Below are positions 1 through 64,000 of a stretch of 64,000 bases of DNA, one piece after another. Origin of the DNA: an uncultured bacterium (GTDB lineage: Bacteria; Cyanobacteriota; Vampirovibrionia; Gastranaerophilales; Gastranaerophilaceae); contig CASERN010000009.1 in NCBI GenBank assembly GCA_949290355.1, positions 1-64,000 of the forward strand, read 5' to 3'. How positions within the stretch are numbered: the first letter of the stretch is position 1; every line of letters starts with the position of its first letter. The translations under genes and the position numbers were made by a program. The notes under the pieces are model-generated. The model worked only from the letters and a program-made list of their open reading frames with translations. It searched no databases and was not told where the DNA came from.

Positions 1-625
1 ATTGCTTTCTTTCATCCTCTGTTCCACAAACTTGAATAGAAGTTTCTTCCTCATACCACTTACAATAAGGCATACTATAAAAAGTTGTAAAAATTTTATC
101 CGTTGCTGTAAAAAGGAAAATATCTCTTCCACCCTCATTAGGACCTTTTAATCCATTTGTATCGACAAAAACAACAAAACCTGCAACAGGATTTGTTGCA
201 AAAAGAATAATACTACCATCAGCGCTAGTTCCAGAAAGAGTGGGACTGCCTATTGAGCCAGAACTTGCACATTCTGAAAAAGTCGTTCTAGTACCACATA
301 AATCTGTAACTTTTTTTATTTCGTAGTCTAAAATACTTGTATCATTAACATTTGATAATTTGAATGTATTTACAAACTTATTTTTTACTTCGTCATTACT
401 TAAATCCAATACTCCAACAGCACATTCGATATCAGTACAGCCTTCATTGACCATTATTTGCCTATAACCTTCATTCAAAACGGAATAAGTCTTTTTCAAC
501 TTATTTATCCATACCTGCTTTTGGTAATTAGCCATTAATGAAGGGATTGTCATTGCTGCGACAACGCCAATAATCCCTAGAGTAATTAATACCTCTGCTA
601 ATGTGAAACCGAATAATCTTTTCAT
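1..625 (-). CDS. type IV pilin-like prepilin protein, 3' end outside window
   Basis: The protein begins MKRLFGFTLAEVLITLG, the class III prepilin signal: a short basic head, cleavage after the Gly of GFTLAE, Glu at +5 and one hydrophobic helix. About 208 residues are visible before the left edge, with no stop. Further in it has the block VDTNGLKGPNEGGRDIF, shared with the two other prepilins at the right end of the window. Such proteins are inserted in the inner membrane, processed by PilD-type peptidase and assembled as pilins or pseudopilins. The ATG follows GGAGAG by 5 bases and has its own upstream promoter. A poly-G mini-ORF lies 90 bases upstream. The role as major, minor or pseudopilin cannot be told. 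Confidence 0.85.
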   Translation of the reverse strand, partial: MKRLFGFTLAEVLITLGIIGVVAAMTIPSLMANYQKQVWINKLKKTYSVLNEGYRQIMVNEGCTDIECAVGVLDLSNDEVKNKFVNTFKLSNVNDTSILDYEIKKVTDLCGTRTTFSECASSGSIGSPTLSGTSADGSIILFATNPVAGFVVFVDTNGLKGPNEGGRDIFLFTATDKIFTTFYSMPYCKWYEEETSIQVCGTEDERKQ

Positions 626-661: not shown

Positions 662-689
662 ATTATAACAGATTTTTTTACTTTTGCAA
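662..689 (-). promoter_or_regulatory. sigma70-type promoter of the left prepilin
   Basis: On the minus strand TTGCAA (684-689) and a perfect TATAAT (662-667) are separated by 16 bases. Transcription would start about 30 bases before the prepilin ATG, so this gene can be expressed independently of the poly-G leader upstream. Confidence 0.55.
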
Positions 690-714: not shown

Positions 715-762
715 TTAAATCGCCCCCCCCCCGAAAGTCTGTAATCCGTCAAATCTTTCCAT
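715..762 (-). CDS. 15-residue leader ORF with G10 tract upstream of prepilin
   Basis: An AAAGGAGCT ribosome-binding site is followed 8 bases later by ATG and a 16-codon ORF, MERFDGLQTFGGGAI, then TAA. Codons 11-14 lie in a run of ten G (C10 at 723-732 on the plus strand). The frame of the downstream prepilin is open from a TGA just upstream of the G run all the way to its ATG. With 11 or 8 G the leader would read straight into the prepilin. The same leader, with related sequence and equal length, lies at 60195-60242. It may be a phase-variable start or a remnant of one; no product is known to me. Confidence 0.55.
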   Translation of the reverse strand: MERFDGLQTFGGGAI

Positions 763-937: not shown

Positions 938-2338
938 ATGAGTTTACAAACAGCAGAACAATTTGAAGAAAACGAACAGTATACACAAGCGTTTGAAGAA
1001 TATCAAAAATTATATAACAGAAATCCTAAAGACTTGAGTCTGCTTGAAAGGTTAGGTCATTTGTCTTTACTTTTAGATAACAAGGAACAGGCTGCTGAAT
1101 ACTATTCAAAAATTCTTGAAGCTGATGCTACAAATATTATTGCATATGAGCAGTTAATGGATATATATGTTACAACTGACAAATACAAATATTATGTGTA
1201 TAGAGGAAACTTACATTCTGTAGAGCACAAACTTGAACATGCAATAAATGATTATAAAAAAGCTATAAATTGCGCTCAGGAAGATAAAGAAATCATTTCT
1301 GCAAGATTTGTTCTTGGAACTTTATATGAACAAATTGGAAATAATTTGAAAGCAATTGATGAGTATTTAAAAGTAATTGAATACGAAGATATCCCTCAAG
1401 ATGCTTTTATCAGATTGTCAAATCTTTATTTGAAAGAAGACGCTGCTCCTAGTGCTATAGAAGTTTTAGAAAGAGCGCTAAAAAATGGAATCAATGGAAC
1501 AAATATCAAAGAAAATTTAGCAGATCTTTATCTTAAAAACGGAAATCCGGAAAAAGCTATTGAAATAACTTCTGATGAATTGACTAAAGTAAAATGTTTG
1601 CTTGATATGGACAAAAAAGAAGAAGCTATTGACAAACTGAATAAAATGGAAGATCAGTATAAGCATATTCCTCAATTTTACTCGCTTAAAGCACAGTATT
1701 ACTATATGATTAAAGAATTTGATAAAGCTCTTGAATGTGTCGAAGAGTTTGATAAAGCAGAAAAAAATTCTCCATTAACATATCAAATGAGAGCGCTTAT
1801 TTTTGAAGAAAGAAAAGATGATTTCAATTCATACTTGAACTGGGGTAAATATAATCTTGTTAGAGGTAATAAAGATATTGCAATAAATGAGTTTTTAAAC
1901 GCTTACCAAGTAAAAGATAATGACATTGATCTTTTAAATACACTTGCTATGCTTCTTGAAGAATCTGGAGATAAAAACCACGCTATGGAGTTTTATGAAA
2001 AAATTTCAAAGCTTGAACCTAATGACAAAAAAGCACTGCAAAAACTTGCTGACTTTCGTGAAAGTATCGGAGATTACAGAGCTCAGGCCGATTATTTGGA
2101 AAAACTTTATATACTCGATAAAAGAAATTCATTAACAGTTAAAAAATTGGCAGAAGCATATGAACATATTCATAACAAACCTGCAGCTGTTGAATTTTAT
2201 CAAAAATACCTTGAAATAGGAAAAGGAAACCCTGATTATTCAAAAATTCAACATAAACTTGAAAAATTAAATAATACCGAAATGCAGGAAGAAGAAGGAC
2301 TGATTGATAAAATATTAAGATGGTTCAACAAAAACTAA
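938..2338 (+). CDS. TPR-repeat protein
   Basis: The 466-residue protein consists almost wholly of tetratricopeptide-like helical pairs, for example QAFEEYQKLYNRNPKDLSLL near residue 18 and HAMEFYEKISKLEPNDKKAL near 345. It ends in a short hydrophobic-basic tail, IDKILRWFNKN. No signal peptide is visible, so it is probably a cytosolic scaffold. AAAGGAGCC precedes the ATG, and a TATAAT-like box lies about 35 bases further up. It converges with the PilC/GspF gene and overlaps its stop codon by 4 bases. Partner proteins are unknown; a link to the pilus genes is only suggested by position. Confidence 0.8.
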   Translation: MSLQTAEQFEENEQYTQAFEEYQKLYNRNPKDLSLLERLGHLSLLLDNKEQAAEYYSKILEADATNIIAYEQLMDIYVTTDKYKYYVYRGNLHSVEHKLEHAINDYKKAINCAQEDKEIISARFVLGTLYEQIGNNLKAIDEYLKVIEYEDIPQDAFIRLSNLYLKEDAAPSAIEVLERALKNGINGTNIKENLADLYLKNGNPEKAIEITSDELTKVKCLLDMDKKEEAIDKLNKMEDQYKHIPQFYSLKAQYYYMIKEFDKALECVEEFDKAEKNSPLTYQMRALIFEERKDDFNSYLNWGKYNLVRGNKDIAINEFLNAYQVKDNDIDLLNTLAMLLEESGDKNHAMEFYEKISKLEPNDKKALQKLADFRESIGDYRAQADYLEKLYILDKRNSLTVKKLAEAYEHIHNKPAAVEFYQKYLEIGKGNPDYSKIQHKLEKLNNTEMQEEEGLIDKILRWFNKN

Positions 2339-3576
2339 AATAATGCTCCCATCATTCCAAAATACAGTTGATAAAATGCTAAAGCTATAAATAATACAAA
2401 ACCACCCATTATTATAATTATAGTTGGTTCAAAAAGTTTTGTTAAAGTATCTAAAGCCATATCAACTTTTTTGTCCATAGCATCAGCAGCTTTGGATAAC
2501 ATCTCACCGATATTACCGGATTTCTCTCCTGTGGAAACCATTGATAGCAAAGTCCCAGGTAAAAAATTCATTCTACTAAAGGCTTCAGTTAAAGACTTGC
2601 CGGCTTTTACTGAATTCACAATATTTGAAGCTTTCTTTTTTATTATATAATTACCAACAGTCTTTTCTGCAAGCTCAAGACAAGATATAATTGGAACTCC
2701 TGCTTCATAAGATATATATAAAACAGTCATAAAATTAGATAAATTTATACATCTTATAAAATCAGATACCCCATAGATTTTTAATATAAAATCATCCCAT
2801 CTTTTTTTTAATGATTCTTGCTTGAATAAATATGAACACCAACCGCAAAATGCTCCAAAACAAATTAATAAAAACCACCAAAAATGATTTAAGAAATTAC
2901 AAAAATCAACTAAAGTTTGAGCTAAAAAAGGTACATCTCCACCGCTATTTTGTATTACTCCATAAAATGCAGGAAAAATTACTCCTGAAAATATAGCTAA
3001 AACTCCAACCATCAAAACAAACAAAATAGCTGGATATATTGAAGCTTTTGTAATTTTTTCTTTTATGCTCTCCTGCTTTTGCAACAAAACAATCAATCTG
3101 CGTAACGTAGCCTCTAAATCACCGGAAGCTTCGCCAGCTTTTAACAAACCTGTATAGACAGGTCCAAATAATGCTCCGTATAACTTTTCAACAGCTTGAG
3201 AAAATGTTTGTCCAGACATAATACTTTGGACTAGTTTTTCACATATCATACTCAATTTTGTATCCAAAACATTTGAAGATATAGAATTTAAAGCTTCTAT
3301 TATTGGAATACCGGCAGACAAAAGAACTTCCAACTCTGATGTAAATAATATCTTACTTTTTAAACTTAAAAAAGTTATATCTTTTTTATCCACATCTACT
3401 TGAGAGAAATTCCCTGAATAATCCTTTGTTGTATTTTCCTTTTCCAGATATATTTTAGCAGGAATATACCCAAGCGCTCTTATTTTTACTCTAGCTTCAC
3501 GTAAATCATGAGCCTCAAGTTCTCCTTTTACTATAATCTTATTATCTTTCAATGCAGTATATATGTATTTAGCCAT
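2335..3576 (-). CDS. type II secretion/type IV pilus inner-membrane protein, PilC/GspF family
   Basis: The 413-residue protein has the PilC/GspF layout. An N-terminal cytosolic part (YIYTALKDNKIIVKGELEA) is followed by two T2SSF domains, at about 70-195 and 275-400, each ending in hydrophobic helices. FLSLKSKILFTSELEVLLSAG and the GEASGDLEATLRRL / STGEKSGNIGEMLSKAADAM motifs are typical of the family. It forms the inner-membrane platform that couples the assembly ATPase to pilin extrusion. No ATPase, secretin or peptidase gene lies beside it, so it is separated from the rest of its machine. It ends at the TPR gene. Confidence 0.9.
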   Translation of the reverse strand: MAKYIYTALKDNKIIVKGELEAHDLREARVKIRALGYIPAKIYLEKENTTKDYSGNFSQVDVDKKDITFLSLKSKILFTSELEVLLSAGIPIIEALNSISSNVLDTKLSMICEKLVQSIMSGQTFSQAVEKLYGALFGPVYTGLLKAGEASGDLEATLRRLIVLLQKQESIKEKITKASIYPAILFVLMVGVLAIFSGVIFPAFYGVIQNSGGDVPFLAQTLVDFCNFLNHFWWFLLICFGAFCGWCSYLFKQESLKKRWDDFILKIYGVSDFIRCINLSNFMTVLYISYEAGVPIISCLELAEKTVGNYIIKKKASNIVNSVKAGKSLTEAFSRMNFLPGTLLSMVSTGEKSGNIGEMLSKAADAMDKKVDMALDTLTKLFEPTIIIIMGGFVLFIALAFYQLYFGMMGALF

Positions 3577-59466: not shown

Positions 59467-60156
59467 TTACCAAGGATAATCAGGAGCAATAGTCCAACTA
59501 TCCATTTCTATCAACCTTGAGCAATAACTTCCAGGGCCAAGAACACCACCAGAAGCATTTATATTACATTGCCCGCTAGTTCCGCTGCCTTTGACATCAT
59601 TACGCCTTCTAAACGCATTATTTAAATCATCCGAATACTGATTATATGTATGTAAAGCATTATTGTATACAGAAAATGCAAAAATATCACGCCCTACTTT
59701 ATTTGGTCCTCGATCTCCATTTAAATCTACGAGAATATGATATTTCACTTGTAATCCAGGATAAAGCCAAAAGAATACGTAAGTTCCATCACTTAATACT
59801 AACATCGGGAGTTGCATAACTCGCGTTACCCCAGACAAGTCTGTATAAGTATGTTGATATATTGCCTCGGACTTTCTATCTTCTACAACCTGAAGATATG
59901 GGCGATAGTATTTTTGTTCAAAATCATACCCACTCAAAGTAAAATCCCAATTATTAACATCGCCATATTCATTTTTTGCAAATTCTGTAGCCTGCTTCAA
60001 AGTAGAATATGTCTTTTTTAATTGAGTAACAGTCTGCTCTTTTTGATAATTAGTTATTACTATCGGAATCGTTAGTGCTGCGACAACTCCTATTATTCCA
60101 AGAGTTATAAGAACTTCTGCTAACGTAAATCCCAAGCGTGCCGCTTGACCCGACAC
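59467..60156 (-). CDS. type IV pilin-like prepilin protein, possibly phase-variable
   Basis: From the GTG at 60156 the product is 229 residues: SGQAARLGFTLAEVLITLGI gives the prepilin cleavage site and membrane helix, and VDLNGDRGPNKVGRDIFAF is the block shared with the other prepilins. The GTG has no ribosome-binding site. The frame stays open upstream through a G10 run to a TGA. A well-placed AAAGGAGCT and ATG (60242) lie in another frame that is joined only if the run has 11 or 8 G; the product would then be 258 residues. As given, translation from that start would end early. Confidence 0.82.
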   Translation of the reverse strand: MSGQAARLGFTLAEVLITLGIIGVVAALTIPIVITNYQKEQTVTQLKKTYSTLKQATEFAKNEYGDVNNWDFTLSGYDFEQKYYRPYLQVVEDRKSEAIYQHTYTDLSGVTRVMQLPMLVLSDGTYVFFWLYPGLQVKYHILVDLNGDRGPNKVGRDIFAFSVYNNALHTYNQYSDDLNNAFRRRNDVKGSGTSGQCNINASGGVLGPGSYCSRLIEMDSWTIAPDYPW

Positions 60157-60194
60157 TAATTTTTTAAAGATATCTGAAAACCCTTGATATGGGC

Positions 60195-60242
60195 TCAGAT
60201 ACGCCCCCCCCCCGAAACTGTATACTCGTCAATCTTTTGCAT
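60195..60242 (-). CDS. 15-residue leader ORF with G10 tract, upstream of prepilin
   Basis: AAAGGAGCT, 7 bases and ATG start the ORF MQKIDEYTVSGGGRI, stopping at TGA. The ten G (C10 at 60204-60213 on plus) occupy the end of codon 10 and codons 11-13. Its length, ribosome-binding site and core (AAGATT-GACG, ACAG, TTTC, G10, CG) match the leader at 715-762. A change of one G upwards or two downwards continues the reading into the prepilin below. It is probably the true 5' end of that gene. Confidence 0.65.
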   Translation of the reverse strand: MQKIDEYTVSGGGRI

Positions 60243-60445
60243 TTTCAAGCTCCTTTTGCTTCTTCATTAAAATCTATATATACATAATAAAATATTTTCA
60301 ATAATTTTTCAATAACTAATTTTTCAAATTTAATAAATTTATCCATCAGTATTTTTCTTATGTCAACAATAAATTTACGTAAGATATATTCAATCGTTAA
60401 TTTTTCCTTAAGAAAATTAATTTTTTCTCAATTCCGTTATATAAA

Positions 60446-63610: not shown

Positions 63611-64000
63611 TTAATAATTCATCTGCCAACCATCAACTATGATTTTTTCGGAACAAGTTATTCGAGAGTTTTCATTGCAACCTTGTTCAATGGCTTGTTT
63701 TCTCTCATCCTCTGAAGCAACAACACTAGTTCCTAGCAACTCTGCTAACCAATCCACATGCACTTTGCTTAAATAAGGAGCTATTATTTTATCTGTATAT
63801 ACAAATTCAAAAATATCTCTACCGAACTCATTTGGGCCTTTTGAGCCATTTATATCAACGAAAACCAACCCTCCTACAATAGAACGACCTATAACAATAA
63901 TAGTTCCATCGGCAGTAGTACCCAAAATAGAATCTTCTCTATTTTCTATTCTTAAACAATCAGAAAAAATTACTTCATCACTGCCACATGAACCAGAGGC
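63611..64000 (-). CDS. type IV pilin-like protein, 5' end outside window
   Basis: The frame is open to the right edge, so the prepilin N-terminus is not visible. The visible 129 residues include CGSDEVIFSDCLRIENREDS, then GTTADGTIIVIGRS and VDINGSKGPNEFGRDIFEF, homologous to the left-edge prepilin (CGT...FSEC, GTSADGSIILFA, VDTNGLKGPNEGGRDIF). Both also share the string EDERKQ further on. It ends ISCSEKIIV-like (RITCSEKIIVDGWQMNY). It is a third member of this prepilin family, placed behind cysK on the same strand. Confidence 0.8.
   Translation of the reverse strand, partial: ASGSCGSDEVIFSDCLRIENREDSILGTTADGTIIVIGRSIVGGLVFVDINGSKGPNEFGRDIFEFVYTDKIIAPYLSKVHVDWLAELLGTSVVASEDERKQAIEQGCNENSRITCSEKIIVDGWQMNY

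Follow-up and report, generated by a model that had tools for sequence, protein, structure and literature searches.

Poly-G/C tracts in prepilin leaders of Gastranaerophilales: a probable genus-wide system of translational phase variation

The best-supported reading of the homopolymeric tracts described here is a genus-wide system of poly-G/C translational phase variation that acts mainly on prepilins, with the prepilin at the right end of our window (the 64,000-nucleotide stretch of contig CASERN010000009.1 that we analysed) as a default-OFF member. We put the probability that its run of ten Gs acts as the switch in a contingency locus for translational phase variation, OFF as assembled and one of about 37 in the genome, at roughly 0.75. 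The bacterium probably switches surface fibres on and off at random, although no switching was observed. The original prediction treated the locus by itself; the target is one member of a system that extends through the genus, not a lone gene, and the single-gene view is corrected accordingly.

A gut lineage of the Cyanobacteria phylum thus appears to hold a large poly-G repertoire aimed at pilins and surface sugars. Switching would account for pilin annotations that are truncated or absent in these genomes, and it predicts strong cell-to-cell surface diversity inside a host. Our literature search, which left subscription journals and preprints mostly uncovered, brought up no report of a poly-G pilin system in Gastranaerophilales or Melainabacteria. 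The Melainabacteria phase-variation literature that we found concerns, in its accessible parts, flagellins. In the portion of PMC4040986 open to us, "homopolymer" refers to read correction and the words "pili" and "pilin" do not occur; that of PMC5877343 mentions type IV pili genes, and the frameshifts that it reports, which may be artefacts, are in hydrogenase genes. A 2025 review, likewise available in part, regards multi-locus phase variation as restricted to pathogens, a restriction that, by its own account, may reflect database bias (PMC11868660).

The target leader and its relatives in one genome

All window features described here lie on the minus strand. The target locus reads AAAGGAGCTTGAAAATG, with a Shine-Dalgarno sequence (AAAGGAG, 60250..60256) upstream of an ATG at 60242; 29 bases separate this start codon from the tract of ten Gs (60204..60213, located by run search), after which the strand continues CGTATCTGA. 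As assembled, the start opens a leader ORF of 15 codons followed by a stop (60195..60242; MQKIDEYTVSGGGRI*), and the tract occupies codons 10-13, i.e., the 5' part of the ORF. The prepilin frame (59467..60203) lies 3' of the tract and reaches ATG 60242 only with eight or 11 Gs: when the G count was varied, the ORF comprised 15 codons with ten Gs, 25 with nine, 257 with eight and 258 with 11, in the last two cases extending through the prepilin (GFTLAEVLITLGIIGVVAA), so that the full protein results from a single phase out of three. Direct reading therefore bore out the original prediction that ATG 60242 is the good start, closed after 15 codons at ten Gs, and that eight or 11 Gs join the same start to a prepilin of 257 or 258 residues. 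Its statement that the prepilin's own GTG (60156) lacks a ribosome-binding site also stood, as inspection of the sequence revealed no Shine-Dalgarno before this codon.

The prepilin N-methylation motif (PF07963, 60070..60135) scored 22.9 bits in the genome scan, over the cut-off, so that the target has the cleavage and methylation motif, with a hydrophobic N-terminus, of the type IV class; the GTG-started ORF alone scored 19.9 bits, under the cut-off of 21.2. A promoter-like sequence (TTGAAA-17-TATTAT, 60284..60312) is present 5' of the leader, and promoter-like sites in the target region (eight found, against 5.9 +/- 2.4 expected) are not above chance. Within the leader is a hairpin, TCAAGCGGCACGCTTGG (also written AAGCGGCACGCTT; 60132..60148), which by inference could serve as an attenuator while the leader is untranslated; an AAGCG..CGCTT hairpin is present in 25 of 174 leaders of tract-bearing prepilins. 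The target hairpin falls in a 21-base DNA motif kept across species, which matches 14 stretches in records under the names Fusobacterium sp. CAG:439, Candidatus Gastranaerophilales, uncultured Candidatus Melainabacteria and one "uncultured bacterium". From these relatives we infer that the genome belongs to the Gastranaerophilales, non-photosynthetic Cyanobacteria. Identification of a target orthologue through the groES neighbourhood failed, in that the adjoining prepilins vary between species (30 groES loci), and among the matches listed from a direct DNA search, only partial ones, to the 5' half of the query, came from outside the window's genome.

In phase variation, translation would start at the ribosome-binding site (RBS) and ATG 60242 and then cross the tract. 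With ten Gs the ribosome would run into a stop once 15 codons had been read, without making prepilin (OFF); slipped-strand mispairing that added one G or removed two would join the leader to the prepilin frame (ON), and a prepilin peptidase would then remove the leader before FTLAE. With a large pilin repertoire OFF by default at length ten, any one cell would carry on its surface only a few pilins, chosen at random. Surface-sugar genes bear the same kind of tract in the frame in which ten means ON. Slippage, switching, expression states, cleavage, pilus assembly and benefit are thus all inferred, on the basis of anatomy, frames, counts and the length differences among orthologues and paralogues, which were observed.

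G runs of at least eight bases occur twice in the window (six overlapping matches against 0.12 expected, a number reached in none of 100 shuffles), both of them 29-30 bases 3' of a prepilin's RBS and ATG and one base out of frame. The second is a G10 tract of the same kind as the target's (723..732), in a leader ORF that reads as 15 codons plus a stop (715..762; MERFDGLQTFGGGAI*); the prepilin behind it (2..625) continues past the window edge and has its own ATG at 625, preceded by GGAG. Near this locus is an ORF (2335-3576) that we take to resemble the PilC/GspF inner-membrane pilus protein. A third tract-bearing prepilin crosses the right window edge, with its 3' part at 63611..64000 and its G10 at contig positions 64389-64398, 389 bases past the window (L074).

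In the genome as a whole (G000; 1.85 Mb, 14 contigs), 113 overlapping G8 matches resolve into 39 runs of at least eight. A Pfam N_methyl scan returned 55 prepilin-motif matches, 54 of them over cut-off; 37 of the 55 lie directly behind a G or C run of at least eight, and 37 of the 39 runs are at prepilins. As assembled, 28 of these 37 loci are OFF by one base and one by two, one has lost its start at a contig end, and seven are ON (C8, G8, G11, three C11 and one G10 with a differing flank). Near-identical paralogues with similar flanks carry C8, C9, C10 and C11, or G8, G10 and G11. Where prepilins without a tract were read, their leaders were often short and ordinary, e.g., MKRGFTLAEV.

Run lengths and reading frames across the genus

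Thirty-three genomes of the genus contain 2019 runs of at least nine bases (per-genome median 63, maximum 176), with at least 20 runs in 27 genomes and fewer than 12 in six. Length ten accounts for 1621 of these runs, 11 for 150, nine for 148 and greater lengths for 100; without G002, an outlier with long runs, 1609 of 1945 (83%) are exactly ten. A count of ten in all reads and all relatives would have refuted the original prediction: relatives do not all have ten (8-11 in prepilin loci), and ten is strongly preferred. In a tally of 864 kb of DNA, there were 14 G6, one G7, no G8, no G9, 35 G10, five G11 and one G13. The tiles tallied were mostly contiguous and run-blind, one (G026:C6:140001-160000) having been chosen for a known run; some G9 and G11 loci were selected by length, and length proportions rest only on unselected run counts. 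Elsewhere in the family, two genomes of other genera hold 35 (G033) and 13 (G034) runs, and 23 genomes outside the family hold 47 runs of at least nine altogether. The low-run genomes of the genus (0-11 runs) are G013, G021, G023, G027, G029 and G011, and G027, which is 98% complete, has one; the poly-G system may be absent from some lineages of the genus.

Two other causes were rejected. Assembly artefact cannot be general, as orthologous G10 loci recur in the records of different projects (G004, G026), and loss of mismatch repair does not hold for MutS1, to which all 58 of 58 genomes gave a match, 53 of them above the cut-off, with G000 among them. Scans of viral_contigs yielded nothing indicative of viral or mobile spread.

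We read frames in 178 tract-bearing prepilin loci of the main clade (24 genome or record labels), in which run lengths are 8-11 and the flank frame is nearly fixed; omission of rows with N or short flanks left 173 for the flank matrix and 176 for leader classes. An RBS and ATG precede the tract in all but ten of the 178, which have no start by our rule. At length ten, 113 of 116 loci with a start are OFF: 111 need one base, two need two, and the remaining three are ON. One base is needed in 95 of 100 such loci with a near start and in 16 of 16 with a start further upstream (81-85 bases in five printed examples, length ten with ATG). Loci of length 11 are ON in 24 of 30 cases with a start and those of length eight in three of three, and 14 of 19 length-nine loci would require two bases. 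The coding-strand run is G in 127 and C in 46 of 173 loci, and the frame rule is valid for both. A set assembled by similarity to the target, which overlaps partly with the 178 loci (28 loci, with 17 tract-linked prepilins in 16 of them), gave the same picture, one base being needed in 11 of 11 length-ten loci with a start. The rule (ten OFF, 11 or eight ON) implies that the flanks set which length is ON and that length varies around ten.

Two genomes, G002 (L267-L294) and G033 (L266-L290), carry comparable prepilin leaders in which the runs are longer (12-16) and the flanks different. The nine readable prepilins of G002 with runs of 12-16 are all OFF, eight of them sharing one offset, the other OFF offset; of five readable prepilin loci in G033, two are ON and three OFF.

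Thirteen cross-species pairs of orthologous prepilins (at least 82% identity over at least 350 bases) allowed run lengths to be compared directly. Two pairs differ by one G, the first with G11 (ON) in G026 and G10 (OFF) in G004 at 95.7% identity, the second with G9 in G016 and G10 in G007 within nearly identical flanks. In a further pair, both members have G10; a difference in their flanks makes the locus ON in G026 and OFF in G004. A run-length difference between relatives was thus observed for the class and not for the target, which is without a clear orthologue. That the target is phase-variable and OFF as given, the core of the original prediction, has the support of comparative frames, lengths and surface genes, with switching itself an inference; counting against phase variation are the 11 of 13 orthologue pairs equal in length, the presence of MutS1, and the six of 33 genus genomes with fewer than 12 runs.

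Two prepilin pairs of G004 and G026 (L115 18251 / L191 8273; L118 18727 / L194 864) are nearly identical after G10 and have unrelated leader segments before it, with synteny conserved, and leader modules seem to be exchanged between paralogues. Large rearrangement was rejected, since synteny carries on at both sides, and G10 as a site-specific recombination site was demoted, since the other junction is at the RBS/ATG or within the leader and not at the tract. Tandem duplication of a leader segment has also placed two runs in a single prepilin leader, 29 bases apart in L100 and 26-27 in L198; each such leader would hold two switches in series.

Surface-sugar genes, flanks and alternative explanations

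Nineteen runs lie in ORFs of at least 200 aa without the standard prepilin motif. Six of these ORFs are prepilin-like by eye, with G10 OFF in L145, G11 OFF in L185 and L221, G11 ON in L209 and L220, and G9 OFF in L244. Among the 13 others, read in relatives, all 11 genes with a ten-run keep their frame in the assembly, and so does the one with a G9; the one with a G11 is out of frame. In L122 the run is at residue 332 of 353, so that its in-frame state says little. Pfam names among the 13 are GT2 (two), GT9, GT1, polysaccharide pyruvyl transferase (two), radical SAM and mTERF-like; of the rest, four were scanned without a Pfam match and one is a second copy of the mTERF-like gene. The usual length is ten in ON and OFF genes alike, which suggests a default setting of OFF for pilins and of ON for surface-sugar enzymes.

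That ten is kept in both ON and OFF genes argues against recoding as the cause of the run. Programmed recoding would hold that the length is fixed at ten and that RNA polymerase slippage or a ribosomal -1 shift restores the prepilin frame, for low constant expression in every cell. We consider it unlikely, although it accommodates how tightly length ten is held (1621 of 2019 runs of at least nine), the constant offset of one extra base in 111 of 116 length-ten prepilin loci and the single OFF offset in eight of nine readable G002 loci (runs 12-16), and although known recoding sites have an early stop in the starting frame, as these leaders do. The ten-run is already in frame in all 11 non-prepilin ORFs that carry it, however, and changes to eight, nine and 11 are mostly uncompensated by the flanks; moreover, G002 sits on the other OFF offset, and G033 is split between two ON and three OFF loci.

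Other features go beyond what plain slippage would leave behind. In the 13 non-prepilin genes, a C precedes the run in 13 of 13 and follows it in 13 of 13, with a T at -2 in 11 of 13; the C flanks are conserved against a genome G+C of about 30%. The 3' flank of the G strand is alike in both gene orientations: a matrix built from the 127 sense loci scores the 46 antisense loci 2.37 on average, compared with -2.8 for the best of 2000 shuffles. Sliding the matrix by one base gives a similar score (2.70 vs 2.03, positions 4-16), so the register of the flank is loose.

Two glycosyltransferase genes have tracts where orthologues have none. In the single-copy GT2 gene (G026 L126 9576-7969), G026 and G004 have PLYRI-TGGGHS-LHCNL, with G10-CATTCT, and at least 17 readable orthologues have a TDNGYT-like sequence of the same length and no run. 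In the GT9 gene (G026 L122 452-1510), G026 and G004 have NSPPPEEI and the tractless orthologues (at least nine read, one of them cut by a contig end) are mostly NYPKPEEI-like, with no length change in the eight complete ones. The orthologues listed comprise 20 of 30 loci for GT2, two of which (L346, L371) were dropped as aligned to paralogues, and 11 of 30 for GT9. In both genes, tractless sequence gave way to a new G10/C10 tract in the lineage shared by G004 and G026, with gene length unchanged.

Such features might be taken to mean that TC-G10-C with its AGCTT-like flank is a DNA element recognised as a duplex, in binding, recombination or copying, and that its effect on frame is secondary. 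The flanking Cs (13 of 13 on both sides, with T at -2 in 11 of 13), the flank common to both orientations, the absence of G8 and G9 beside 35 G10 in 864 kb, block replacement at constant length in the GT2 and GT9 genes and the swapping of leader segments up to the tract in two orthologous pairs all favour such an element. We nevertheless find it very unlikely as the primary explanation: it leaves the frame rule (111 of 116) and the conserved RBS and ATG without a reason, the flanks and lengths differ in G002 and G033, and the leader exchange can also come from gene conversion among paralogues, the tract simply marking the start of homology.

Plain slippage does not predict the tight length, the conserved C flanks, the orientation-independent flank or the block replacement. 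Gene conversion can explain leader exchange and perhaps part of the shared flank, but neither the C flanks nor the block replacement. A more ambitious proposal, which we hold to be doubtful yet worth stating, is that the Gastranaerophilales switch is, rather than a chance homopolymer, a discrete DNA element, TC-G10-CA(A)TTCT..AGCTT, which works in either orientation and is written as a block into surface genes without change of their length. A dedicated factor, acting in slippage or copying, would keep it at ten bases; it would be a purpose-built, transplantable module for phase variation, by which pilins are default OFF and sugar enzymes default ON. In any event, the system invites the question why a tract should keep to a length of exactly ten.

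Scarcely credible is a dispensable leader, in which case the prepilin would be translated from GTG 60156 or by way of an internal promoter with its own start, and expression would be unaffected by the tract: an ICYN segment with TATAAT codons in 42 of 176 leaders, 23 of the 42 with a Shine-Dalgarno and ATG, speaks for it, but the target is outside this class and its GTG has no Shine-Dalgarno, the other two frames are stopped while the prepilin frame is open, and an RBS and ATG precede the tract in all but ten of 178 loci.

The ICYN-like stretch lies between tract and prepilin, in the second locus of the window (723-732) and not in the target. It reads TGTTATAAT in 26 leaders, and its codons, which spell TATAAT, are AAT in 33 of 33 cases for Asn and TAT in 41 of 42 for Tyr, compared with 117:43 and 98:25 in seven window genes. 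In the second locus, a promoter-like sequence recognised by eye (TTGCAA-16-TATAAT, 662..689) is part of it. With a Shine-Dalgarno and ATG ahead of the prepilin in the 23 leaders, pilins of this class may have a tract-independent promoter and start, their tract being dispensable. Among the 134 leaders without the segment (the target's class), no internal Shine-Dalgarno and start was found by rule in 125. Between tract and prepilin, the other two frames contain stops in 42 of 42 and 42 of 42 ICYN leaders and in 128 and 110 of the 134 others; the prepilin frame is open there, openness in one frame having been a search criterion.

Likeness to known systems

Phase variation of this kind has counterparts elsewhere. 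In Neisseria, poly-G/C homopolymers switch pilus-related genes and pilin paralogues recombine, and both have their likeness here; unlike in Neisseria, tens of paralogues each have the inferred switch within the leader of the prepilin itself, and the exchanges observed are of leader segments. Genes with programmed transcriptional slippage or -1 frameshifting resemble the present tracts in homopolymer, constant offset and early stop, but here the same run is also kept where it is already in frame. In Campylobacter, surface-polysaccharide genes are among the tract carriers, as they are here.

The accessible part of a Campylobacter survey (PMC6321876) permits a closer comparison, within the limits of that part. 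The two share an AT-rich genome, numerous frame-changing G/C runs (about 9-11 long) that lie for the most part in ORFs, and a narrow, genus-specific length mode. Among 1944 Campylobacter poly-G tracts of at least seven in 77 genomes, 53% are nine and 26% ten bases long (PMC6321876); length ten is held tighter here than the Campylobacter mode, the cut-offs being different (at least nine here, at least seven there). Our system differs in having prepilins as its main carriers, a mode of ten and conserved C flanks. It also differs in number, with a median of 63 and a maximum of 176 runs of at least nine per genome, against 5-81 phase-variable genes per Campylobacter strain, and in orientation, coding-strand C runs making up 46 of 173 prepilin loci, against 5% of Campylobacter tracts (PMC6321876).
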